This document shows positions 3,313 through 47,594 of a stretch of DNA of 64,000 bases, piece by piece (position 1 is the stretch's first letter; each line of letters opens with the position of its first letter). The stretch comes from a virus. A program made the position numbers and the translations under genes. The DNA is taken from positions 1 to 64,000 of the IMG/VR virus record IMGVR_UViG_3300009182_000050. One strand, given 5' to 3'. The notes beneath the pieces were generated by a model, which saw only the letters and a program-made list of their open reading frames with translations, did not search any database and had not been told where the DNA came from.

Positions 3313-5601
3313 ATGCCTACATTTTCAAATAATATAGTTTCAAATATTGAATACTCTAATACGCTAACGCCTACTGGTGTATCTTCTCTTAGTACTAATG
3401 GATACAGTATAGAGATATCTGAAAATGGTAATACCATTGTTGCAGGTGACACTGGCGATAATGAAGGTAGGGGTGCTGTTTATGTTTTTAGTCGTCAAGG
3501 AGTTGGCGGACCTTGGGTGCAGACTCAAAAAATTACTTGGTCGTTGCAGACTATTGGTGGAAACTTTGGTTACTCGGTAGCCTTATCGGGTGATGCAAAT
3601 ACTTTAGTAGTTGGCTCTGTTAGTAACTCAGTTAATGCTGCTCAAGGTAAGGCTCAAGTTTATACTAGAAGTGCTTCTACTGGTTTATATTCAGAGTCTC
3701 AGACTATAACAGTAAGTACTGCATACTCTACTGCAGGTCAAATTGCTTATATTTCTAGTAACGGTTCTACAATATTTTTTGCAAGTCCAAATGAAACTGC
3801 ATCTAGAGGTACAGTTTATGTATACACTAAACCAACTACAACATGGACTTTACAAGGTACAATAATACAAGCAACAAAACCTTTATGGGGTACTGCTCTA
3901 AGTGTTTCTGGTGATGGAAATACAATAGCCGTTTTTAGGGAAGACGATATTGTTACTGTTTATTTTAGAGCAACAACTACTTTTGCTCTCCAAGGAACTT
4001 TACAACCTCCTACACTAGGTTTGAGTGGTTTTTTTGGTTCGGGGTATAACCCAATAAGCATTTCTTATGATGGTAATACGGTAGCAGTAGGTGAGCCTCA
4101 AAATGGAAATGTCTATACTTTTACAAGAAGTGGAAGTGTTTGGACAAGAATAAATACTTATGCAGCCCCTCTACCTTACACAAGTGGTGGTTTTGGTACA
4201 GCAATTGCTGTCTCTTCTGATGGCTCAACTTTATATATTAGAGACTCTTCAGGTCTTAATCCTGGCTATATTACTTCTCTTGATGTCTCTTCCCCGCTTT
4301 ATGTATATAGCACTGCTTCTACAACTTTGCTTTCTACTTTTTATACAACTAAACCAGATTATGATGCTAGTTTTGAAGTTTTCAAATGTTCAGTAAATGG
4401 CGGAAATATTGTAGGTAGTAATGGTTATGATGCTGTTAAAGTTTTTGATACTGGTAAAGCTTTAGATAATAATTTTTACGGTCATAATGGAAGAAACAAT
4501 ACATGGACTGTATCTAGATTTAATGAACTTACTTCTGTAAAAACAGTAAAAGCTAGTTATACTTTAACAACTAGTTTTACTTTTACTATTCCTGTAGGTG
4601 CTAAAGCAATAGATGTTATTTGCATTGGTGGAGGTGGAGGTGGCGGTGGAGGGGCAAGAAATGCTTCACCATACTATGGCGGTGGTTCAGGTGGTAGTGG
4701 AGGTAATGTATCAGAGTATATGTTTTCTGCTGATGCTTTAGGTGGTCCTGGAACTAATATTTTAGTAACCGTAGGTGCTGGTGGTCTTGGAGGTTCAATA
4801 ACTTCTTCAGGTACTACGGCTGCTAATGGTAATAGTGCTAGTAACGGTGGTACTACCAGTTTTGGCTCTTTTCTTAAAGCTGCTGGTGGAAATGCTGGCA
4901 CTTTTGCCTCCTTTAGTGGCGAGCCTCAGTCAACAACACCTCAAACAAATTATACAGGTATGTTTATTGGAAATACTGGTGGTAGTTCAGGGTCAGATGC
5001 AGCATCTTCTTATGCTGGTGCTGGTGCTGGCGGTGGCGGTGGCGGCGGTGTTTCTCCTAATGCTACAAAAGGTTCTATCCCTACTACTATAGATTTAGTA
5101 TCAGTTGCAGGTGCTAATGGAACTAGCAATGGTGCTTCATATACATCTCCTGGTGGTGGGGGTGGAGGTAGTTCTTCATCAGTATCAACTCCTCTTATTG
5201 CTGGTGAAGGTGCTAGTTATGGCGGTGGTGGTGGTGGCGGCGCAGAAGGTGCATCTCTTGGAGCTGGAGGTTCCAATGCTGCATATACTGGAGGAACTCT
5301 TACTGCTTCAACTGATACAGGTTATATAAGAATTGATATTACTGGTGGTACATCTCTTGTTGAAGACTCTAAGAATTATATTGATGTCACAGGTCTTACC
5401 TATACAGGTGCAACAGGCTCTACTACTGGTCCATTTTTAGTTACCAGTGGTACAACCATTGGTGGTACTTTTATAACATATAAAGTACCTACTGGAACTA
5501 CAGCCGTGTCAGGAACTCCTACAGTAGTGTTAACACGAGCTGGCGGTGCTGGCGGTAATGGTGCTGTTGGTATGTGTCATATTACAGTTTGGTATGGGTG
5601 A
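3313..5601 (+). CDS. FG-GAP-like propeller plus glycine-rich adhesin
   Basis: 762 residues in two parts. Residues 20-370 hold about six or seven repeats of the form FGxSVALSGDANTLVVG followed by VYVF or QVYTRSAS, the pattern of FG-GAP-type beta-propeller blades. Residues about 410-762 are a glycine-rich domain opening with [15 protein letters not shown] and ending MCHITVWYG, matching the neighbouring adhesins. The fusion suggests a receptor-binding propeller on a glycine-rich foot, or the reverse. Short spacing on both sides indicates co-transcription with the other fibre genes. Confidence 0.7.
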   Translation: MPTFSNNIVSNIEYSNTLTPTGVSSLSTNGYSIEISENGNTIVAGDTGDNEGRGAVYVFSRQGVGGPWVQTQKITWSLQTIGGNFGYSVALSGDANTLVVGSVSNSVNAAQGKAQVYTRSASTGLYSESQTITVSTAYSTAGQIAYISSNGSTIFFASPNETASRGTVYVYTKPTTTWTLQGTIIQATKPLWGTALSVSGDGNTIAVFREDDIVTVYFRATTTFALQGTLQPPTLGLSGFFGSGYNPISISYDGNTVAVGEPQNGNVYTFTRSGSVWTRINTYAAPLPYTSGGFGTAIAVSSDGSTLYIRDSSGLNPGYITSLDVSSPLYVYSTASTTLLSTFYTTKPDYDASFEVFKCSVNGGNIVGSNGYDAVKVFDTGKALDNNFYGHNGRNNTWTVSRFNELTSVKTVKASYTLTTSFTFTIPVGAKAIDVICIGGGGGGGGGARNASPYYGGGSGGSGGNVSEYMFSADALGGPGTNILVTVGAGGLGGSITSSGTTAANGNSASNGGTTSFGSFLKAAGGNAGTFASFSGEPQSTTPQTNYTGMFIGNTGGSSGSDAASSYAGAGAGGGGGGGVSPNATKGSIPTTIDLVSVAGANGTSNGASYTSPGGGGGGSSSSVSTPLIAGEGASYGGGGGGGAEGASLGAGGSNAAYTGGTLTASTDTGYIRIDITGGTSLVEDSKNYIDVTGLTYTGATGSTTGPFLVTSGTTIGGTFITYKVPTGTTAVSGTPTVVLTRAGGAGGNGAVGMCHITVWYG

Positions 5602-12848: not shown

Positions 12849-12869
12849 ATTAGTAAGGAAATGACAAAA

Positions 12870-14705
12870 ATGACAGAACGACAGACACATGATTTATCAG
12901 AAGTAAAACTACATTTAGTTGATTCTGTAGAAAAAGCAAGTGAGTTTTTGACTTGGCTAAGCCAGAGACGACCTTATGGTGCTGTTTCCGTTGATATTGA
13001 AACTGGTGAACTTCCCGGCGGAGAACGTAATGACGCACTATCTCCTTGGCACGGACAGATTCGCTTGGCTCAAATTGGTGATGGTGAGCAGGGTTGGTCT
13101 ATTCCTTGGGAAGATTGGTCTGGTGTTTTTTATCAGGCTATGGATAAATTTTCTGGTCCTATTGTGTGCCACAATATTGCTTTTGAAGCAAAATGGTTTG
13201 CTGTTAAATCTAAGTGGCAACTACCTTGGCATCAAGCTCACGACACAATGATTATGGCTCAGATTATTGACCCACTTGGTTCAGGTGCTCTTAAGCGGTT
13301 AGCCTCTAGATATATTGACCCTCGTGCTGTGGCACTTCAAGAAACTTTAGGTACATCTCTGGCTATTAATGGATGGACTTGGGGGACTGTTCCTACAAAC
13401 TTTGAACCTTACTGGTCATACGGTGCTCTTGATACTGTTCTTACAATGCGTATCTGGGAGCAGTTTTATGGACAATGTGGTCCAGAGGGTTCATACAATC
13501 GTGCTTACGAAATTGAGATGGCTGCTAGAAAGATTGTCACTCGTATGGAAATCAATGGTGCTCGTGTAGACCTTGACTACTCTCGTCGCAAATACGATGA
13601 ACTAGTAAACTACACAGAGTCAGTAAAAGAGTGGGCTAAGGGTGCTTATGGTGGAGCATCTATTACTAGTAATGTTCAACTAGTCAGACTCTTTGAGTCT
13701 TTAGGTGCAGAGATTACCGAGTTCACGCCTACAGGACAAAAATCTGCAACTAAAGACCAATTAAAACTTCTTACTATTACAGGTAATGATGAAGTAAAAA
13801 ATCTTGCTGAAGTAGTTTTGAAACAGCGTAAAGCTGACAAACTTGCTAGTAGTTATTTCTCAAACTTTATTAGTAAAAATGTAAATGGTTTTGTTCATCC
13901 ATCTGTTAAAACAATGGGTGCTCGTACCGGTCGTATGTCAATTACTGACCCAGCGTTGCAGACTCTTCCAAAGGGTGATGATGTAGTTCGTACTGCGTTC
14001 TTACCTAAAGATGATGACCATGTAATTATTACTTCTGACCTTGACCAAGTTGAGTTCCGTATGTTTGCTTCGTTGTCTCAGGACCCAAACTTGATTCAAC
14101 TATTCCATCGTGCTGATGCAACTGGCTCTGACCCATTTACTGAAATTGGCCGTGAGGTTTATCAAGAACCTGAAATGACTAGGTCTGATAAACGACGTAA
14201 TCTTATTAAGGGCGTTGTTTACGGTCGTCTTTACGGTGCTGGTGTAGCAAAGCAAGCCCTCACTGCTGGTGTTCCTGAGTCTCAGATGCGTGCAGTTTCC
14301 GATTCGTTTGACCGTAACTATCCAGGAATGATTTCTTTTCAAAAGAAAATTGAAGATATTGGTATGCGTCGTCTTCGTGGTGAAGGTCAGGGCTATGTAC
14401 ACACTTGGACTGGTCGTCGTCTTCCTTGTGATGATGACCGTACTTATACGCTCGTTAACTATTTAATTCAGGGTGGTGCTGCTGAGGTATTTAAGTCAAA
14501 CTTAATCAAACTTGACCAAGCAGACCTAACTGAGCTTTTGATTGTGCCTGTGCACGATGAAATTGTTCTTAACTGTCCTCGTGACCAAGTTGCAGAAGTT
14601 ATGAAGACTGTTCAGGAATGTATGACAACAACCGAAGGATGGTCAGTGCCTCTTACATCAGGTATTGATGGTCCACTAGAGACTTGGGGAGATAAATACC
14701 GCTAA
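12870..14705 (+). CDS. DNA polymerase I-like, family A, with 3'-5' exonuclease
   Basis: 611 residues from ATG 12870, which lies about 10 bases after AAGGA; the ATG at 12861 is too close to that site. Proofreading domain: VDIETGELPGG (~35), CHNIAFEAKWF (~100) and YGALDTVLTM. Polymerase domain: ARTGRMSI, motif A SDLDQVEFRMFA (~390), motif B RRNLIKGVVYGRLYG (~440) and motif C VHDEIVLN (~560). There is no N-terminal 5' nuclease domain, as usual for phage family A replicases. Motif A carries Glu after QV, the ribonucleotide gate. It is the probable replicative polymerase and overlaps the next gene by one base. Confidence 0.93.
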   Translation: MTERQTHDLSEVKLHLVDSVEKASEFLTWLSQRRPYGAVSVDIETGELPGGERNDALSPWHGQIRLAQIGDGEQGWSIPWEDWSGVFYQAMDKFSGPIVCHNIAFEAKWFAVKSKWQLPWHQAHDTMIMAQIIDPLGSGALKRLASRYIDPRAVALQETLGTSLAINGWTWGTVPTNFEPYWSYGALDTVLTMRIWEQFYGQCGPEGSYNRAYEIEMAARKIVTRMEINGARVDLDYSRRKYDELVNYTESVKEWAKGAYGGASITSNVQLVRLFESLGAEITEFTPTGQKSATKDQLKLLTITGNDEVKNLAEVVLKQRKADKLASSYFSNFISKNVNGFVHPSVKTMGARTGRMSITDPALQTLPKGDDVVRTAFLPKDDDHVIITSDLDQVEFRMFASLSQDPNLIQLFHRADATGSDPFTEIGREVYQEPEMTRSDKRRNLIKGVVYGRLYGAGVAKQALTAGVPESQMRAVSDSFDRNYPGMISFQKKIEDIGMRRLRGEGQGYVHTWTGRRLPCDDDRTYTLVNYLIQGGAAEVFKSNLIKLDQADLTELLIVPVHDEIVLNCPRDQVAEVMKTVQECMTTTEGWSVPLTSGIDGPLETWGDKYR

Positions 14706-18022: not shown

Positions 18023-18805
18023 ATGAGTGACATTCAGCGTTCATTAACAGTTATGGTCTACGGTGAATCAAAGGTTGGAAAGTCCACCTTTGCAGTTACC
18101 TCCCCATATCCACGTCTTATGCTTGATGTTGAGGGTGGACATCGTTTCCTCCCAATCGTCGTCAAGTACTGGGACCCACTACGCGAAGAACCACCTGTCG
18201 CAGATGGAACTTGGGACACTTGTGTCGTCCAGGTTCGTAACTATGATGATGTCATAAAGGCATACCAGTGGCTTCAGAGCGGTAAGCACCAGTTCAAGAG
18301 TTTGATTATTGATTCAATCTCAGAACTACAAGTTAAGTGTATGGATTCAATTGCTGGCAGCGAGCAGATGAAAATGCAACAATGGGGCGAACTACTTCGT
18401 CATATGGGTGCACTTCTTCGCGACTTGCGTGACCTCACAATGCACGCAACGAATCCACTAGAAGCAGTAGTCCTAACTGCAATGGCTCGTACCGGGCAGG
18501 ATGGTCGCTACCGTCCTTACCTACAGGGTCAACTTGCAATTCAGGCTCCATACTTCTACGATATTCTCGGTGGTATTACCATTGAGGAAATGCCAAATCC
18601 TGACCCAATGCAACCTCCATACAAAGTTCGTAAGATGTATGTAGAACGCACTGCTCAGTATGAGGCAGGAGAACGAGTCCAAGGTCGCCTTGGAGCAATT
18701 GTTCAACAAGAAAATCTATCCATTGAGCGGATGTTAGACATCATCTTTGGAGAGAAACAATCTGTAGCGACCGCTACCAAAACGACAAATAAGAAAGAAG
18801 GTTAA
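18023..18805 (+). CDS. Sak4-like RecA-fold ATPase (single-strand annealing recombinase)
   Basis: 260 residues. MVYGESKVGKSTFAV is the Walker A loop at residue 11, LMLDVEGG follows and SLIIDSISEL near residue 95 is Walker B, the arrangement of phage nucleotide-binding Sak4 proteins. These are short RecA-core ATPases that anneal single strands with the help of phage SSB, which fits the SSB-like gene 3 bp downstream. Confidence 0.82.
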   Translation: MSDIQRSLTVMVYGESKVGKSTFAVTSPYPRLMLDVEGGHRFLPIVVKYWDPLREEPPVADGTWDTCVVQVRNYDDVIKAYQWLQSGKHQFKSLIIDSISELQVKCMDSIAGSEQMKMQQWGELLRHMGALLRDLRDLTMHATNPLEAVVLTAMARTGQDGRYRPYLQGQLAIQAPYFYDILGGITIEEMPNPDPMQPPYKVRKMYVERTAQYEAGERVQGRLGAIVQQENLSIERMLDIIFGEKQSVATATKTTNKKEG

Positions 18806-24985: not shown

Positions 24986-25086
24986 CTTCATACAAGCCAA
25001 ATTCACCAAATTTTCAAATTCTTTTTCCGAAGGGGTAATGATGCAAGCGACGGTAAAAAGACTAAGTATTATTAATGAAGGTGTCT

Positions 25087-27738
25087 GTGAGTAAGCACGA
25101 AAAAGCAAATCTTGATGGTAGATTTGAAAAAGCGACATCTTGGTATGCCTCACAGGGGTGGAAGATTCTCCCTTGCTACGGCATTGTTGGTGGTCGTTGT
25201 ACTTGTAATGGTTCTCACGCTGAGCCAAAAGATATTGGAAAGCACCCAGCAATTAATGGCTGGCACACAGAAGCATCAAGCGATTTACTAGAAATTCAGC
25301 GTTGGTGGGAACGTGACTCAGAAGCAAATATTGGTGTCTTCTGTCGTCCATCAGGATTTTTTGTAATTGATATTGACCCTCGCTCCGGTGGTCACGATGC
25401 ATTTGAAGAGTTTGAAAAACTAGTTGAGGGTGCTCTTCCTCCAACGGTTGAAGCATTGACCGGTGAGTACACACTTGCTGGTAAAACAATGCGTGGTCGT
25501 CATATTTTTTATCGTTGCGACCCTTCAGAAGACCTTGTTGGGAATCTAAAAGCTGCTGGTATCAAGGGAATTGATATTAAGCACAATGGTTATGTTCTTA
25601 TTGCTCCATCGCGTCACTTTTCTGGTGAAAACTATGAATGGGTGAATGGCAAAGCTCCTTGGGAAACTGAGATGGCTGATGCTCCAGAAGAACTTCTTGC
25701 ATTTCTTCGTAAGAGGACTCGTCGTTCTGCATCAACAAGTACAACTCTTGGAACTATGGACTGGAGTGCTGCCTTTGATGGTGTTGACTTTGGTGCAAAT
25801 AAAGCAGAGATTGAAAAACTTCTTGATGAAGGTATTGATGAAGGTTCTCGCGCTGTTGATATTTATCGCCTTACCTGTTCACTTGCTAATCAATATCCAG
25901 TAGACAAAGAACACGGTCGTCAGGCTCTTGAGACTTTGATGATTCGTTTTAATGCTGAGAAGGTTCGTCCACCTCTTGAACTTGAAGGAACAAACGGTCT
26001 TCTTCACCATGTTCGTCGTGCAATTAAGTATGTTGCAGAAAATCCAAAGTCTGAATTTTTATGGCCTGGCATCTCTGACAAAGAAACTGGATGGGCTAAA
26101 AAATCTACAGAAGAGACTGCTGAAAAGTTTAGGTCAACTACTACTCCTATTCAGCCAATTCTTGGTGTTGCTTATCCAAAAAATATTGATGCTCTTCCAG
26201 GAACTATGGCTGGTGCTATCTCAAAAAGTATTCACGAGGGTGAGTCAATTGCTGAAGCATCATCACTATCTAATCTCAATGTGCCTAAAGACCCTGATGC
26301 AATTCTTGAAGAAGATGGTGGGGAAGTTGGTAAGCGTACTCTTTCTGATACAGGTAATGGTCGTCGCTTTGTAGATACTTTTGGTGAAGCGATTCGCTAT
26401 TCAGAAGGTCTTGGATTTTTTCACTGGTCTGGTGGATATTGGAAGCCCGACATTGAAGGCTTAGAAATGCAGGAACTTGCAAAGCATCTTGCACCGGTTA
26501 TCGCTAGTGAAGTAGTTCACTATGAAGGTGATACTGATAAGCAGTCTGAAGTAATCAAATGGGCGCAACTTTCAAAATCAAATGCTCGTATCAAGTCAGC
26601 AATTGATAACGCAAATTCTGACCGTCGTATTCGTGTTGAAGTTTCTAAGTGGGATTCTGAGCCACATATGCTTGGTGTACTTAATGGTGTAGTTGATTTG
26701 CGTACTGGTGAACTTCTTAAGAATCGTCCAGACCTCTACATCACACGTCGTGCACCTGTTGCTTATACACCGGGACTTAGTAATGTTCGTTGGCAACAAT
26801 TCTTAGACTTTGCTACAGGTGGAGATAAAGAATATCAAGATTGGCTACAAAGAGCAGCAGGATATTCACTTACTGGTTTGAGTAAGTATGACTTGATGTT
26901 TCTTGTATATGGTCCTGCAGGTTCTGGTAAAAATACATTTGTTGAAGCAATTGTTAAATGTCTTGGTACTCAGCAATACGCTTGGCCATTTGACTCAAGT
27001 ATTCTTGCAAGTGGTGATGGAAACGCTAACGGCTCTGATATGTATCACTGGGCTGAACTTCGTGGTCGTCGTCTTGTTTGGGTTGATGAACTTCCAGACT
27101 CAGAGCGTCTAAAAGAAAACTCAGTTAAAAAGTTAACTGGTTCATCTGAAATTTCTGCTCGTTCTCCCGGTGAGCGTCCATTTACATTTGCCTCACAAGC
27201 AAAACTTTGGATTTCTACTAACCACCGTCCAATTATTACTGACGATGCAATGTGGCGACGTATTCGTCCAATTCCATTTACATTTGTACCTGAGAATCCT
27301 GACCCAGACTTAAAAGAATATATCTTTGACCCAGAAGGTGCGCTTCCTGCTGTACTTTCTTGGGCAGTTGAGGGTGCTATCAAGATGCTGAACTCTAGCT
27401 CTCGTGATGCTCTTGGTTGGTGTTCTGTAGTTTCTGAAGCTGCTGAAATTTACCGAAAGACAGAAGACCGTATTGGTATTTTCTTAGATGAAGAAACTAT
27501 TGAGAATGAGGGTGCAACTACCCCTATTAAATCTTTGTACAGTATTTATCGTATTTGGGCTGAAGAACGTGGCGAAAAGCCTATGAGTCAGACTGCTTTC
27601 CAGCGCAAAATGCACGAAAGAAATGTTAATATTGTTGGTATGGGGTCTCAGGCTATTATACACGGCAGGTCACTTAAACCTCGTACAGTTGTTACTGGAG
27701 AAATTGACTGGGGAGCAGCAACTAGATTTGCTAGATAG
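25087..27738 (+). CDS. Bifunctional primase-polymerase / SF3 helicase
   Basis: 883 residues; GTG 25087 is preferred since AAGG lies 5 bases upstream, ATG 25075 being the alternative. Residues 10-210 are an archaeo-eukaryotic-type PrimPol: GKHPAINGW, FFVIDIDPRSGG (catalytic acids, ~95) and GRHIFYRCD, IDIKHNGYVLIAPS. Residues about 380-800 are a D5-like helicase with SLTGLSKYDLM, YGPAGSGKNTFVEAI (Walker A, ~608), RLVWVDELPDS (Walker B, ~665) and the SF3 sensor region ISARSPGERPF...LWISTNHRP. It should prime and unwind DNA for the family A polymerase. Confidence 0.9.
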   Translation: MSKHEKANLDGRFEKATSWYASQGWKILPCYGIVGGRCTCNGSHAEPKDIGKHPAINGWHTEASSDLLEIQRWWERDSEANIGVFCRPSGFFVIDIDPRSGGHDAFEEFEKLVEGALPPTVEALTGEYTLAGKTMRGRHIFYRCDPSEDLVGNLKAAGIKGIDIKHNGYVLIAPSRHFSGENYEWVNGKAPWETEMADAPEELLAFLRKRTRRSASTSTTLGTMDWSAAFDGVDFGANKAEIEKLLDEGIDEGSRAVDIYRLTCSLANQYPVDKEHGRQALETLMIRFNAEKVRPPLELEGTNGLLHHVRRAIKYVAENPKSEFLWPGISDKETGWAKKSTEETAEKFRSTTTPIQPILGVAYPKNIDALPGTMAGAISKSIHEGESIAEASSLSNLNVPKDPDAILEEDGGEVGKRTLSDTGNGRRFVDTFGEAIRYSEGLGFFHWSGGYWKPDIEGLEMQELAKHLAPVIASEVVHYEGDTDKQSEVIKWAQLSKSNARIKSAIDNANSDRRIRVEVSKWDSEPHMLGVLNGVVDLRTGELLKNRPDLYITRRAPVAYTPGLSNVRWQQFLDFATGGDKEYQDWLQRAAGYSLTGLSKYDLMFLVYGPAGSGKNTFVEAIVKCLGTQQYAWPFDSSILASGDGNANGSDMYHWAELRGRRLVWVDELPDSERLKENSVKKLTGSSEISARSPGERPFTFASQAKLWISTNHRPIITDDAMWRRIRPIPFTFVPENPDPDLKEYIFDPEGALPAVLSWAVEGAIKMLNSSSRDALGWCSVVSEAAEIYRKTEDRIGIFLDEETIENEGATTPIKSLYSIYRIWAEERGEKPMSQTAFQRKMHERNVNIVGMGSQAIIHGRSLKPRTVVTGEIDWGAATRFAR

Positions 27739-33341: not shown

Positions 33342-34019
33342 CTAACTATCTAAGTTATCTATTTGTTTCACATAAGCAATGTATGCGTGTCTAACAGTTG
33401 CTGGATACCATTGCTTTCCTTCGTGTGCAGTAGGTATTCCCTCAGCATTAAGAGCATTAGCAATAAGTTGATAAGACATTCCTAACTGTCTATTTTTATA
33501 GATTCTTTCTCGTACTTCTTTCTCAATATCTGGTGTAGGTCCAAGGTCTATACCCCAAACTTTTCCATTACTTCGTCTATCACGGTGAACATCTTTTTGA
33601 CGTTCAGAAATCATTCCGCGTTCCATCTCCGCCATAGCAGCCATAATGGTAACAACAAAACGACCCTGATGAGTTGCAGTATCAAGACCAAGGTCAAGAA
33701 GAGCCAAACGCCAACCAAACTTATGAGAACGGTCAACAATGCTAAGAAAATCTTTAGTTGAACGCGCCAATCTATCAAGACGTGTGACATAAATTGCCTG
33801 AGCCTTTCCTGCGTCTAGGTCATCTAGCGCATTTCTTAGTACTGGTCGTCCTTGAATACTTTTACCTGAGCGACCTTCTTCTCTTAAAATTACTGGTTCA
33901 TAGTCAGCAGCAAGTGCTGCATACTCCATTTGTTTGACCTGAGCATCAAGACTGATTCCATCATTGACCTGCATCTGTGTTGATACGCGAGCATAGAGGT
34001 AAGCAATTCCGTTAAACAT
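33342..34019 (-). CDS. Serine recombinase (resolvase/invertase size)
   Basis: 225 residues. YARVSTQMQ contains the catalytic serine, EEGRSGKSIQGRP and YVTRLDRLARSTKDF hold the conserved arginines, and MAEMERGMISERQ is the long E helix start. The C-terminal part after residue 160 is a recombinase-type helical domain (MSYQLIANALNAEGIPTAHE, WYPATVRHAY) but too short for a large integrase. It could be a dimer resolvase, an inverting enzyme or a short integrase; no flanking att or hix site was identified. Confidence 0.82.
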   Translation of the reverse strand: MFNGIAYLYARVSTQMQVNDGISLDAQVKQMEYAALAADYEPVILREEGRSGKSIQGRPVLRNALDDLDAGKAQAIYVTRLDRLARSTKDFLSIVDRSHKFGWRLALLDLGLDTATHQGRFVVTIMAAMAEMERGMISERQKDVHRDRRSNGKVWGIDLGPTPDIEKEVRERIYKNRQLGMSYQLIANALNAEGIPTAHEGKQWYPATVRHAYIAYVKQIDNLDS

Positions 34020-34794: not shown

Positions 34795-34891
34795 TGATTC
34801 CGCCCTTTCTAAGGCAATATAACATATAGACTTAAACTTAAGTGTATACGATAATTATGCCATAAAGCAAGCAAAACGCCCAATTAGAGCC

Positions 34892-34900
34892 TGTGGATAA
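34892..34900 (-). promoter_or_regulatory. DnaA box
   Basis: TGTGGATAA on the plus strand (TTATCCACA on the minus) is a perfect DnaA box, embedded in the 14-mer CTGTGGATAACTTT. The same 14-mer occurs twice in the 46.3-46.7 kb origin-like region. Confidence 0.55.
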
Positions 34901-34928
34901 CTTTTGACATTTTCCGGGCCTTAAAGCA

Positions 34929-34977
34929 TTGCATCACAATGCAACAAAAGGGGGTAAAAAGTTGCATTGTGGTGCAA
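34929..34977. promoter_or_regulatory. Pair of palindromic operator-like sites
   Basis: TTGCATcacaATGCAA (34929-34944) is a perfect 6-bp palindrome with a 4-bp centre; TTGCATtgtgGTGCAA (34962-34977) repeats it with one change. Together they also make a 17-bp inverted repeat. Such paired palindromes are typical repressor operators. They lie in the 277-bp gap before the 34.6-34.8 kb gene (minus strand), next to a DnaA box. Confidence 0.55.
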
Positions 34978-35014
34978 CGCTACCAATTTCACAGGTTCTA
35001 CGCTACCAATAGCA

Positions 35015-39877: not shown

Positions 39878-41938
39878 TTATTTGTCTTTTGTATTCTCAG
39901 TGATTAGTTTAATCTCACAAGCGTCAGTTGTGCAATACGCCTCACCAATAGCATCGGCTGCCATACCTGCATAAACACCTGAGAAATCAATTGGGAACAA
40001 CTTAAGTTCGCCCTCTTCACGGTACTCATCTTCGGTAATCTGCGTGTAAGGCATCTGAGGATAAGTGAAGTTGCCAGACGGTAGAAATGAGACCGTCTTC
40101 AACTGACCGTCATACATATGAAGAACAGTACCAACGTGCTCTGCTTCAGTCTCTGGGTCAAATGAGATTGTCACGGATACAGAGTTGTCTGACCAATAAC
40201 GCTGTGCAGTCGCTGCAAGTGACATCTTCTCAAAGATTGTTACATCGCGTTCTGCACGCTCTGCATCAGACTTGATTGGGAAGAATACTACTGAGGTAGT
40301 ATCTGGAGATTCACTGGCTGGTTCAACTCGGTAGTTCGCCATTTTGAAAAGTGGGAGCATAGGGTCAGAATTTGCAAAGCGTATTGCTCGGTTGAAGAAC
40401 TTTCCACCTGGTGTCCAATGAACGCCGGGCGATTCACCAGCAAGGATTGATACTGTTCCTGAAGGCTTAACGGTTGTTGTCTTGATTGATTCACGAATAC
40501 CTAACCACTCTGAGTAAGTACTGTCGTATGACTGAACTGTATTGTATCCGGCATCCATCCACTCACGAAGAATTGGAAGACCATTAATGTCAGCAAAATT
40601 TGCTACGCCAGACATAGAAGTTCCGATGCGACGGTTGCGTTGCATAATTGCGTTTGTTTGTTCCCAGTGGGTTGGAAGAAGAGTTACAGTCTTAGCGTAG
40701 AGATAAGCAAACTTTAGAGTGCGCTTGTAGTCTTCAACACTCTCGTGACGATTGAGATAAGTCTCAACCAGTGTGCACATTTCGTAAGACTCTAGTGACT
40801 GCTCAGCACAAGGGTTGTATCCCATAATGCGATGGTCTTTGTTATTCTCTGGGTCAGCAAGACGACCATACTTCTTAGAGATATCCATCCAGATAACGCC
40901 CGGCTCACCGTTGCGAGCAATACCATCAACAATGTTTGACAAGTCCTTGCCAACTTCAACAGCAACAGAATTGTTTGACATCCAACCCCAGCCCGGAGCC
41001 TCTGCATCATATGAGTTGCGCTCAGGGAATACTTCAGCGTTCTTCAGGTTAAGGAAGTCTGGGTCATCAATAGAACCAATTAAGAGTTCTGCAGAGCGAC
41101 GAACATTTCCAGATACGACACATACACCAATGAGATTACCAATATCAGCAATATCCCTTTTCGTAACAAGTTCACCAGCACGCCCCTTGAATAGTTTGCG
41201 AATGTAATTATGTAGACGCTCAAGTGGAGCGTGACCTGCAGCCGTTCCACCAAAGGTAGCAATAGGTTCACCCTCTGGACGAATCGCTGAGTAATCAAAT
41301 TCGTAAGTTGATTGCTCTGACTTTAGGTAAGAGTTAATAAGTGCAACGGTTGATTCAACCCAACCCTCACGAGTATCTGGGATAGCAAAAACTTCTACAT
41401 CAGCCTTAGGTGCGTAGATAGTGAATTCCTTTTCAGCACCTTTATCATCAAAGCCCACACCAACACCAAGCATTGACGCTTCCATCAAGAAAGCAAATGG
41501 GGCCGCTGGATTGTTCTTGTTCATCTCAAGTGTAGAAACAAAAGCACAGTTCTGAAGAGCAGCTGAGTTCTTTTGAACATTGACAATAGGAGTTCCCATA
41601 ACCCAGAGTCCACGACCGGGAGGAGTCCACTTCAGATTGAACAGACGGTCAAATGCTTCCTTAGCAGAAGCGGAAGCCTTAGCATCAGACCACGGAAGAC
41701 GGTTTGTCTTGCAGTGCTCTTTCTGAAGTGAGTACATACCATTGATGACTCGCTCACAAACATCTACCCAAGTTTCTTTAGTTCCATCTTCCTTCTTGCG
41801 TGAGTAAGTACGCAGGAAAGTAATCTCACCTACAGAGTTTCCAGCAGCGTCACGATAACCAAACGGTGCTTTCTTATCCTTGTAGGAAGCAACAAATTCT
41901 TCGTTGAGACGGAAAGCAAACTGGACAGAAGTAGACAT
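39878..41938 (-). CDS. nrdJ: Adenosylcobalamin-dependent ribonucleoside-triphosphate reductase (class II)
   Basis: 686 residues, the length of the monomeric Lactobacillus-type enzyme. PPGRGLWVMGT, NCAFVSTLEM (first active-site Cys), VVSGNVRRSAELLIG, NPCAEQSLES (radical Cys and Glu), TVKPSGTVSILAGESPGVH and the C-terminal CTTDACEIK pair that re-reduces the active site are all present. It converts NTPs to dNTPs using vitamin B12, without oxygen dependence. No B12 riboswitch is visible in the 217-bp upstream gap. Confidence 0.93.
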   Translation of the reverse strand: MSTSVQFAFRLNEEFVASYKDKKAPFGYRDAAGNSVGEITFLRTYSRKKEDGTKETWVDVCERVINGMYSLQKEHCKTNRLPWSDAKASASAKEAFDRLFNLKWTPPGRGLWVMGTPIVNVQKNSAALQNCAFVSTLEMNKNNPAAPFAFLMEASMLGVGVGFDDKGAEKEFTIYAPKADVEVFAIPDTREGWVESTVALINSYLKSEQSTYEFDYSAIRPEGEPIATFGGTAAGHAPLERLHNYIRKLFKGRAGELVTKRDIADIGNLIGVCVVSGNVRRSAELLIGSIDDPDFLNLKNAEVFPERNSYDAEAPGWGWMSNNSVAVEVGKDLSNIVDGIARNGEPGVIWMDISKKYGRLADPENNKDHRIMGYNPCAEQSLESYEMCTLVETYLNRHESVEDYKRTLKFAYLYAKTVTLLPTHWEQTNAIMQRNRRIGTSMSGVANFADINGLPILREWMDAGYNTVQSYDSTYSEWLGIRESIKTTTVKPSGTVSILAGESPGVHWTPGGKFFNRAIRFANSDPMLPLFKMANYRVEPASESPDTTSVVFFPIKSDAERAERDVTIFEKMSLAATAQRYWSDNSVSVTISFDPETEAEHVGTVLHMYDGQLKTVSFLPSGNFTYPQMPYTQITEDEYREEGELKLFPIDFSGVYAGMAADAIGEAYCTTDACEIKLITENTKDK

Positions 41939-45441: not shown

Positions 45442-45466
45442 ATCTGTATGTTAGATGATTGTGTCG

Positions 45467-45496
45467 TTGCTTGCAAGTATCGGGGTGGGGTATTGT
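45467..45496 (+). promoter_or_regulatory. Promoter giving a leaderless mRNA
   Basis: TTGCTT (45467-45472), 18 bp, TATTGT (45491-45496); the ATG at 45503 is seven bases further on, at the expected start of transcription. There is no ribosome site. Confidence 0.5.
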
Positions 45497-45502
45497 TTGA
45501 AT

Positions 45503-46270
45503 ATGAATGAAATTAATAAAAATGAAACAGTTTGTGTGTCTTGGTGTCACCACGGTCAAGTGGATGCCTTCTTTGCTCACTCTATGATAGACCTTATCCG
45601 GACAAGAAGTGAGAAGATTAAAAACTTCCACGATATTCTAGGAACTGGTCTTCTAGCCAAAAGTCGTAATATCTTGGTTAACTCTTTTTTGGAGAATACG
45701 GAAGATGACTGGCTGCTTCTTGTGGACTCTGATGAATATATAACGGTAGATGCTTTTGACAAGCTTATGTCAGTGGCAGATAAAGATAAGTATCGTATTA
45801 TATCAGGTTTGTGTTTTTCTGCAAGTCCTGCTACGGATGGGGCTTTGATGCCAACTCCTACGCCAACAATTTATATTATAGATGAAGAGCAGGGATTCCT
45901 GGTTCCATATCTGGACTACCCTAAAAATAGCCTTGTGGAGATTGATTCAGCAGGAACAGGCTGTTTGCTTATACATCGCAGTGTTTTAGAGGAAATGCGG
46001 AAAGAATATAGCGGTGCAACTGGTGATAAGTGGTGCTGGTTCCAAGACGGTCCAGTTGAGGATAATGGTGTCGTGGAGTGGATATCTGAAGACCTTATGT
46101 TCTGCCGCAGGGTAAAAGGTATTGGAGTGAAGATTTTTGCCCATACAGGTGCACTTTTCCCACATCACAAGGACTTTTGGCTACTTGAGTCGCATTATGA
46201 CAGTTGGTATGCAGATACTAAGGCTACCCTGCTTAATCGTAGAGAACGCAGAAAAAAGTCTAAATCTTGA
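45503..46270 (+). CDS. Putative glycosyltransferase (GT-A type)
   Basis: 255 residues. CVSWCHHGQVDAFFAHSMID opens the fold; GLLAKSRNILVNSFLENTED and LLLVDSDEYIT give the donor site with a DSD metal motif; EIDSAGTGCLLIHRSVLEEM is the conserved acceptor-side strand of GT2-like phage enzymes; WISEDLMFCRRV carries the acidic catalytic residue. Start 45503 is chosen over 45455 on promoter spacing. Confidence 0.75.
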   Translation: MNEINKNETVCVSWCHHGQVDAFFAHSMIDLIRTRSEKIKNFHDILGTGLLAKSRNILVNSFLENTEDDWLLLVDSDEYITVDAFDKLMSVADKDKYRIISGLCFSASPATDGALMPTPTPTIYIIDEEQGFLVPYLDYPKNSLVEIDSAGTGCLLIHRSVLEEMRKEYSGATGDKWCWFQDGPVEDNGVVEWISEDLMFCRRVKGIGVKIFAHTGALFPHHKDFWLLESHYDSWYADTKATLLNRRERRKKSKS

Positions 46271-46321
46271 GTTTAACTAGTTAGTTATACTAGGGAAAAG
46301 ATAATAATTCCCTGAAGACTG

Positions 46322-46350
46322 GCCGGCTGGAAACAGCTGGCTTTTCTTTT
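46322..46350 (+). terminator. Rho-independent terminator
   Basis: GCCGGCTG, GAAA tetraloop, CAGCTGGC and TTTTCTTTT. Ends the 45.5 kb gene. Confidence 0.85.
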
Positions 46351-46353
46351 GCC

Positions 46354-46362
46354 TGTGGATAA
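46354..46362 (-). promoter_or_regulatory. DnaA box
   Basis: TGTGGATAA, perfect match to TTATCCACA on the minus strand, inside CTGTGGATAACTTT. Confidence 0.55.
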
Positions 46363-46368
46363 CTTTTT

Positions 46369-46470
46369 GGGGTTGGAGGATTTTGGGGGGTTATAGGGGG
46401 TAGATTGGGGGGTTGGAAATCAGTTTTCTGGGGTCAGAGGAGGGGGTGCTAGACGTGGTAGAAGAGGGGG
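46369..46470 (+). other. G-run cluster (possible G-quadruplex)
   Basis: Seven runs of four to six G at 46369, 46385, 46396, 46407, 46430, 46442 and 46466, all on the plus strand. Three consecutive runs have loops of 5-6 nt; the fourth needs a longer loop, so the quadruplex would be non-canonical. Confidence 0.5.
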
Positions 46471-46537
46471 TAAATTGAAAGATACTATCGGGAAAAATGT
46501 AGTTGCGATGAAAAAAATTGGATAGTAAGACTATAAA

Positions 46538-46645
46538 AACTATATATGCATATTGCATATACTACTTTATTTCTACTACGCGCGTACGCGCACGCGTATG
46601 GGGTACTGAAAAAGTTAGTTGGATATGCAATATGCATATATAGTT
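46538..46645. repeat. 23-bp perfect inverted repeat with palindromic GC core
   Basis: Left arm 46538-46560 and right arm 46623-46645 are exact reverse complements (centred words TATATGCATATTGCATAT). The 62-bp spacer contains CGCGCGTACGCGCACGCGT, alternating purine-pyrimidine with a perfect 12-bp palindrome. With a 2-nt bulge the pairing extends further outward by CTATAA/TTATAG. Capable of a large cruciform. Confidence 0.85.
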
Positions 46646-46686
46646 TATAGTTTGCTAAGGTATATAGTTTGTGCTAGGATGTTGGC

Positions 46687-46695
46687 TGTGGATAA
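46687..46695 (-). promoter_or_regulatory. DnaA box
   Basis: Second TGTGGATAA of the region, again in the context CTGTGGATAACTTT. Confidence 0.55.
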
Positions 46696-46719
46696 CTTTA
46701 AGAAGAAAAGGTTGGAAGT

Positions 46720-46905
46720 ATGAGTGCGATGAAGCGTGAGCTTGAAGACAGGGCTGAACAATTACTTGGATATTTATTTCCGAAAGAGGAACGAGACAAG
46801 TGGACCTTGGAAGAACAGATGACTTGGGCTGGGTACGCACGAAGTGCAGCAGGAGAAATTATTGAAGCAGAAATTAAATCAGACAGAAAAAAGAAAGGAC
46901 TCTAA
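46720..46905 (+). CDS. Unknown small helical protein
   Basis: 61 residues, ATG preceded by GGAAGT. Charged helices (MKRELEDRAEQLLGYLF, AAGEIIEAEIKSDRKKKG). First rightward gene after the origin-like region. Not recognised. Confidence 0.5.
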   Translation: MSAMKRELEDRAEQLLGYLFPKEERDKWTLEEQMTWAGYARSAAGEIIEAEIKSDRKKKGL

Positions 46906-46906
46906 A

Positions 46907-47125
46907 TTGAATTTGGGATTGGAGTTGGTGCTATTGCTTGGAATCTTTTTAGCAGGTTTTGCTGGAAGTTTGCTCGCGATACTTGGATACACGAGTTACC
47001 AGAAAAGAAAGCAACTGAAAGTTGCAATGAATCTCTATAAAGAACTTAGAGAAAAGATAGATACCGAAATTAGTTTTGCTGAATTAGCAGAGCAACTACG
47101 AAAGGAAGGTTTTGGAAATGACTGA
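46907..47125 (+). CDS. Small single-pass membrane protein
   Basis: 72 residues from TTG 46907, seven bases after AAAGGA and one base after the previous stop. One membrane helix (LVLLLGIFLAGFAGSLLAIL) then a cytoplasmic helix. An upstream ATG in the same frame (46844) would overlap the previous gene heavily. Confidence 0.5.
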   Translation: MNLGLELVLLLGIFLAGFAGSLLAILGYTSYQKRKQLKVAMNLYKELREKIDTEISFAELAEQLRKEGFGND

Positions 47126-47594
47126 AACTAATAACGCATCGCGTGATGCTTTAGCAGCACTTGGACTAACCGTTGAGGAAGTTCAAGAAGTTGATGGGAC
47201 ACTACGACAGCAAAAGTTTGGGACAGATAGACGAGTTTGTTTATGTGGACACGGAGCACCGAAGCATACGGAAGTTGCTGGGCGTTCAATGTGTAAACCA
47301 TCACGATACGCCTGTCCTTGCAAGAACCTACGACCGGTACTAGAAGCCGAAGATGTAAGACCGTTTCTGTGCCGGACAGTCGGTGGTGGAGCGATGCACG
47401 CTTTGGTTCGTGGAATCAGTTCGCTCGCAGTTCGTGGAAAAAGTTCGCATTGGATTATTGAGTTGAAGTGCGATAGATGTCAGGGAACAGACGAAGTTGT
47501 CGTACCAGTTCCTGTAACCGAACACGGTAAAGCAACTACCTACGCAACTGGGTTTGATGCTCTGTTATGTCAGACTTGCCGAGAGGAAGTCTAA
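47118..47594 (+). CDS. Zinc-finger protein with two Cys clusters
   Basis: 158 residues. RVCLCGHGAPKH with MCKPSRYACPCKNLRP forms one Cys/His cluster; LKCDRCQGTDEVV and LLCQTCREEV form a ribbon at the C-terminus. Start ATG 47118, with an in-frame TTG six bases upstream. Likely a nucleic-acid- or protein-binding factor. Confidence 0.6.
   Translation: MTETNNASRDALAALGLTVEEVQEVDGTLRQQKFGTDRRVCLCGHGAPKHTEVAGRSMCKPSRYACPCKNLRPVLEAEDVRPFLCRTVGGGAMHALVRGISSLAVRGKSSHWIIELKCDRCQGTDEVVVPVPVTEHGKATTYATGFDALLCQTCREEV

Follow-up and report, generated by a model that had tools for sequence, protein, structure and literature searches.

A candidate phage replication origin with inverted iterons and a conserved alternating pyrimidine-purine core

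Origins have been described downstream of D5-type primase genes in several mobile elements. The annotated 302-bp origin of Streptococcus phage Sfi21 (NC_000872 34487-34784) is noncoding and lies right after a D5-type primase, and the rep_origin of Lactobacillus phage A2 (AJ251789 32208-32717) is directly downstream of a D5_N-type primase. Plasmid pRN1 requires for its replication a stem-loop downstream of the ORF904 Prim-Pol/superfamily 3 (SF3) gene; the stem-loop is functional when displaced, the sequence of the inverted-repeat element changes while its structure is kept, and the authors extended their stem-loop proposal to phage BIP-1 and near-identical relatives (PMC4234260). The D5 origin class is already known, and what is new here is a long alternating core that is kept as a pattern. 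It was found in IMGVR_UViG_3300009182_000050, a 72171-bp record of a freshwater actinobacterial virus, of which positions 1-64,000 make up the window analysed here, within a noncoding element made of inverted, iteron-bearing arms around an alternating pyrimidine-purine (Y-R) tract. On the evidence of sequence comparison, we estimate a probability of roughly 0.78 that this element is a replication origin used by the phage's own Prim-Pol/D5 (SF3) primase-helicase.

The defining parts of the element are its inverted iterons and its alternating core (Table 1). A preliminary description of the region had reported a 23-bp perfect inverted repeat around a CG palindrome; the repeat is there, but its perfect arms measure 24 bp, and its axis (46591.5) sits about 5 bp off the palindrome (GCGCGTACGCGC, 46581-46592). 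The extended arms are 33 nt long with a 91% match. No other inverted repeat in the record scores 16 or more (the best of 20 dinucleotide shuffles reached 13), and the core is the sole Y-R tract of at least 15 nt, with a maximum of 20 in 50 shuffles; the unique strong inverted repeat and the unique long Y-R tract of this genome coincide. As regards an AT-rich unwinding element of the kind that accompanies DnaA boxes, the arms are AT-rich and the centre is CG-rich. The TATAGTTT repeats listed in the preliminary description were located at 46637-46670, and copies in the opposite orientation at 46537-46546; the direct repeats at 46637-46670 are presumed initiator-binding sites. Noncoding inverted arms or iterons around a core are what distinguishes Prim-Pol/D5 origins, as is an initiator that joins a primase or Prim-Pol to a D5_N SF3 helicase. 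Such a protein is encoded by the window phage and is 69% identical to the primase/helicase of the complete phage DSL-LC01. The family A polymerase and Prim-Pol from which the preliminary description had argued for a defined origin are both encoded, though distant from the region.

Relatives carry the same anatomy. Syntenic freshwater phage contigs (L handles are ours) were gathered by searches with the ribonucleotide reductase (RNR), glycosyltransferase and neighbour proteins, and a locus was taken beside the homologue of the gene at 47112-47594; 36 loci, some of them near-duplicates, were examined. In 32 of the 36, a Y-R tract lies between inverted arms, and the combined score of the syntenic loci is well above that of most of 57 control stretches (control maximum 25). 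The exceptions are L241 (= L020), L258, L261 and L262, of which the last three lack the element. D5_N was found in 13 of 20 syntenic records, several of which are partial, and is absent from L258, L261 and L262. DSL-LC01 carries the element at roughly 18130-18215, where 780 bp of noncoding DNA separate leftward from rightward genes. The letters of the core vary while alternation is kept (L214 CATACGCGCGTATGCGTGCGC, L224 ATACGTGCATACACATACGTATG, L231 GTATACGCGTATACGCGTACGCATACG), and inner-arm spacing is 36-38 nt in most relatives (L007, L110, L214, L215, L233, L242, L247). Among 18 relatives, a left arm compared with its own right arm scores 17.3 on average, versus 4.3 with the right arm of another phage (306 comparisons); arm sequences turn over among phages while pairing within each phage persists. 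Direct repeats also stand outside the arms in relatives (ACATATAGTTTT three times in L020, GCAGTTTT twice in L247), and the short outer inverted repeat of the window is kept as TTACTATC/GATAGTAA in L013 and altered to TTACTAGT/ACTAGTAA in L007. The gene at 47112-47594 itself encodes a conserved cysteine-rich protein of unknown family, which dozens of contigs from freshwater actinophages have close to the element and which is a useful marker for locating the origin.

Substitutions within the core point to what is being kept. Each D5 relative was paired with its nearest neighbour and the tract was defined in one partner only, replacing an earlier transition/transversion count that was circular, its tracts having been picked by alternation in both sequences. 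Tracts defined in this way hold 71 transitions and 4 transversions, compared with 197 and 158 in the flanks (Fisher p = 3e-12), although the two differ little in overall divergence (7.6% in the tract, 8.9% in the flanks). Purines remain purines under a transition, so alternation is preserved. Strict Y-R alternation is the pattern that permits left-handed DNA, and the sequence marks of a candidate Z-DNA element were found, namely a tract beyond chance expectation and substitutions that keep alternation. Self-complementarity of the core was also considered as the selected feature and rejected: in 22 low-GC tracts it scored 6.2 versus 5.9 for alternation-preserving shuffles, and in 31 high-GC tracts 6.1 versus 6.6. 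Because palindromy does not exceed what such shuffles give, a core hairpin is not what is kept, and the cruciform of the preliminary description was not borne out. Selection seems to act on Y-R alternation and not on sequence or self-complementarity; the simplest remaining candidate for the selected property would be alternation as Z-form propensity or as a flexible run of YR steps.

The element also stands beside D5 genes in unrelated phages. A scan for the core word gave 102 distinct contexts, many of which (e.g. L188, L190, L192) resemble CG-rich repeats arising by chance and were left out of the evidence, and a D5 gene lay no more than 350 bp away in 19 of the 102. In unrelated high-GC phages and prophages, the core and arms of unrelated sequence occur 50-70 bp downstream of the D5_N/DUF5906 gene. 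Since this first set had been chosen by core, a second sample was chosen by D5 protein search, limited to proteins about 75-96% identical to that of L096. A Y-R tract of at least 16 nt, with inverted repeats around it, was present within 190 bp of the D5 stop codon at 46 of 49 distinct loci, and shuffled versions reached 17 or more in 6 of 4900 cases. The origin proposed in the preliminary description is well supported by this recurrence beside D5/SF3 genes, by a layout like that of Sfi21, A2 and pRN1, and by the uniqueness of the element in its genome; of the hallmarks on which it had been based, the inverted iterons and Y-R core stand, but the emphasis on DnaA boxes and G-runs does not.

The core word was also seen in other settings. 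In two Streptomyces contigs (L140 and L150, core at 4640 and 3551) it lies between arms CCCAATTATGAGC/GCTCATAACTGGG, 348 bp before the D5 helicase gene and not behind it. In 22 contigs, almost all carrying an Akkermansia/Akkermansiaceae label (for example L131:1394-1412, L136:2610 and L146:1720), the exact word TACGCGCGTACGCGCGCG precedes the gyrB start codon by 11-16 bp; an alternating tract placed in front of a gyrase gene hints that it may sense supercoiling in gene expression.

Several observations weigh against a D5 origin with an alternating core. Alternation extends over only 9-12 nt in L233, L245, L254, L255 and L257, and there is none in the core of L020/L241. The element is far from the D5 gene, about 19 kb in the window phage and about 16 kb in DSL-LC01, so the link between the two rests on the high-GC relatives; a position directly downstream of the initiator gene, which is usual for the class and not strictly defining, was found in neither phage. 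Inverted repeats are present in Sfi21, pRN1 and Enkosi with no long alternating tract, and D5 origins in general therefore do not require the core. A transition-rich CpG mutation bias could mimic the alternation signal or contribute to it.

How the region is laid out was revised in part. The preliminary description placed the switch from leftward to rightward transcription at a noncoding 424-bp region, 46296-46720; the region is noncoding, but its extent was corrected to 46271-46719, and the switch (45441/45455) lies 0.85 kb to its left. A GC-skew analysis had been suggested as a check, and the detrended circular minimum, at 45445, is no more than about 1.2 kb from the element. This fits an origin but is not independent evidence, because the minimum coincides with the strand switch and skew follows gene direction. 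Searches of the region found no tRNA, no direct DNA similarity to phage records, and no Rfam match at gathering score, with weak microRNA-hairpin matches far below it. Elsewhere in the genome (53667-56633 with 39878-41938), an AAA+ ATPase that matches a PHROG labelled porphyrin biosynthesis resembles, together with a VWA/CoxE-domain protein next to it, a CobS/CobT-like metal-insertion pair; the phage also has a B12-dependent ribonucleotide reductase, and a similar DSL-LC01 gene is annotated as cobalamin biosynthesis.

Table 1. Features of the candidate origin region and replication-related genes, numbered from the first letter of the window.
Feature	Position	Strand	Remarks
Family A DNA polymerase	12861-14705	+	same replication system
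Prim-Pol/D5_N/DUF5906 SF3 primase-helicase	25075-27738	+	carries Pox_D5 at its C terminus; candidate initiator for the element
Serine recombinase	33342-34019		13 kb from the element
Third exact 14-mer copy CTGTGGATAACTTT	34891-34904	+	neither alternating tract nor strong arms at this site
Glycosyltransferase gene	45455-46270	rightward	between strand switch and noncoding region
Noncoding stretch between genes	46271-46719		about 450 bases
Terminator-like hairpin closing the glycosyltransferase gene	46321-46342	+	1 found versus 0.1 expected
DnaA-box 14-mer CTGTGGATAACTTT	46353-46366	-	perfect TTATCCACA at 46354-46362
Seven runs of at least four G	46369-46470	+	could form G-quadruplex
Short outer inverted repeat TACTATC/GATAGTA	46483-46489/46521-46527		read from sequence
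Left arm AAACTATATATGCATATTGCATAT	46537-46560		24 bp perfect; extended imperfect arm 46534-46566; contains inverted iteron AAACTATATA
Alternating Y-R core TACGCGCGTACGCGCACGCGTATG	46577-46600	+	24 nt, Z-prone
Right arm ATATGCAATATGCATATATAGTTT	46623-46646		24 bp perfect; extended imperfect arm 46617-46649
Direct iteron-like repeats TATATAGTTT, TATAGTTT, TATATAGTTT	46637-46646, 46646-46653, 46661-46670	+
DnaA-box 14-mer CTGTGGATAACTTT	46686-46699	-	perfect TTATCCACA at 46687-46695
First small gene right of the element	46720-46905	+	61 aa, no family match

Other explanations of the locus were weighed against these data. A reading in which the long arms extrude and the initiator or primase recognises the resulting hairpin as DNA or RNA, as proposed for pRN1, is favoured by the predicted single-strand fold of 46520-46670 (-34.8 kcal/mol, z = -7.6 versus shuffles) and by the co-variation of the arms among relatives. 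Such co-variation is equally expected for dyad binding sites, however, protein sites account better for the direct iterons that lie outside the arms, and the self-complementarity of the core is not above what alternation alone gives; a cruciform or hairpin origin is in our judgement unlikely. Host DnaA could instead bind the two boxes and open the region, with the phage helicase taking over later. The two perfect boxes of the preliminary description, in an identical 14-mer, and the third copy at 34891-34904 are all exact; the 14-mer with up to two mismatches has 4 matches versus 0.64 expected, a number reached by 0 of 100 shuffles, and TTATCCACA alone is found 3 times versus 0.72 expected. Perfect boxes in relatives are about 30-fold enriched near the element (0.33/kb within 350 bp versus 0.011/kb elsewhere), and those of the subclade share their orientation and have similar positions relative to the core (-190 to -246 and +97 to +112). 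This enrichment stems from that one subclade, made up of the window phage, L214, L215, L013/L238 and L110, whereas the element occurs with no counterpart of the box pair in DSL-LC01 and some 20 further relatives (the pair is present in 5 of about 26 relatives). A box cluster of the DnaA-dependent oriC type conserved across the family was not found, only two boxes in one subclade of about 26 relatives. The boxes are a subclade trait and probably an accessory host contact, and a DnaA-driven origin appears improbable. The third 14-mer was also considered as a second origin, which it probably is not, no tract or strong arms having been found; after it, within 34891-34980, come 17-bp imperfect inverted arms (TTGCATCACAATGCAAC/GTTGCATTGTGGTGCAA) that flank AAAAGGGGGTAAAAA, in a gap beside an endolysin gene. 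The seven G-runs of the preliminary description were located and form the densest such cluster per 110 bp in the 72-kb record, but as a conserved part of the element they were rejected, being weak and irregular in relatives and not conserved as a block.

A regulatory role, in which the element would serve the rightward genes as an operator or as a promoter that senses supercoiling, would agree with the position of the element before the rightward gene block and with the identical core word upstream of gyrB in the Akkermansia-type contigs, where sensing of supercoiling is plausible. A scan confined to sigma70-like promoters, on the other hand, found none (0 versus 1.7 expected), and the element of high-GC phages directly follows the D5 gene, which is where the origins of Sfi21 and A2 are annotated; a regulatory region in place of an origin is very improbable. 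The same high-GC copies adjoining D5 genes speak against a recombination or DNA-end site, be it a serine-recombinase attP, a telomere-resolution site or a partition site. The phage does encode a serine recombinase, and the core contains TACGCGCGTA, which presumably resembles the centre of an N15-type telomere site; yet the recombinase gene is 13 kb away and a ResT/TelK protelomerase domain (PF16684) is absent from the record, and we regard such a site as highly implausible.

What the data show is how the element is built, how rare it is, that other phages keep it, that it goes with D5 helicases, and that substitutions in the core preserve alternation; origin function, the binding partners, the Z-form and bidirectional synthesis are inferred from this. 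As an origin served by the phage's own Prim-Pol/D5 protein, the element might work as follows. The C-terminal DNA-binding domain of the helicase would bind the iterons, arranged as two inverted arms, and two helicase rings would assemble face to face across the 36-38 bp that separate the inner arms in most relatives. Opening would take place at the Y-R core, which might flip into the left-handed form under negative supercoiling or under torque from the helicase, or whose flexible YR steps might unstack; B-Z junctions would then expose bases, allowing the rings to load on single strands, after which Prim-Pol could prime and the family A polymerase extend in both directions. In the subclade of the window phage, host DnaA may assist via the two flanking boxes. 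Cores with TATACGCGT-like alternation of 9-12 nt (L254, L255, L257, L233) or with none (L020) still have strong arms, and these short-tract relatives are natural variants for core function.

AT-rich DNA and iterons are the usual guides to an origin. We put forward tentatively, at somewhat less than even odds, that there is a widespread class of phage origins in which the opening element is a Z-forming tract and not AT-rich DNA, kept in phages of actinobacteria and proteobacteria by selection for its shape, and recognised or set off by a D5-type helicase. Its constant feature would be a purine/pyrimidine pattern that sequence searches miss, providing a simple rule for origin finding in many uncultured D5-helicase phages, even when a long distance separates origin and helicase gene. 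Should Z-DNA indeed form, whether left-handed DNA has a selected role in replication, a long-open question, could be tested on a clear example. A literature search found no paper with the core word and no titles or abstracts tying Z-DNA to phage origins, which is weak evidence of novelty as subscription journals were outside its coverage.

Among known systems, pRN1 has the same kind of initiator and an inverted-repeat element, but it is an archaeal plasmid whose element has a long A/T-rich loop and no alternating tract. Sfi21 has 18-bp inverted iteron arms (CTTTAGTTACTTAGTTAC/GTAACTAAGTAACTAAAG) around an AT-rich core with at most 9 nt of alternation, unlike the CG-rich 24-nt tract of the window, which is far from its helicase gene. 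In A2, ACGGGAGGAT iterons in both orientations surround a core that is likewise AT-rich, with two 11-nt alternating pieces. In Bordetella phage BPP-1, near-identical to BIP-1, arms TTGCCTCGTTTGCCTCGTTTCT/AGAAACGAGGCAAACGAGGCAA behind bbp29 enclose the alternating 14-nt CATACGTGTACATG; the tract is shorter and the arms are unrelated, and Z-DNA goes unmentioned in PMC4234260. AcaML1 and the L096/L099/L104-like phages and prophages differ in that their elements are adjacent to the helicase gene, are mostly of high GC and have unrelated arms, but they share with the window phage the same type of core between inverted arms, placed behind the D5 gene.
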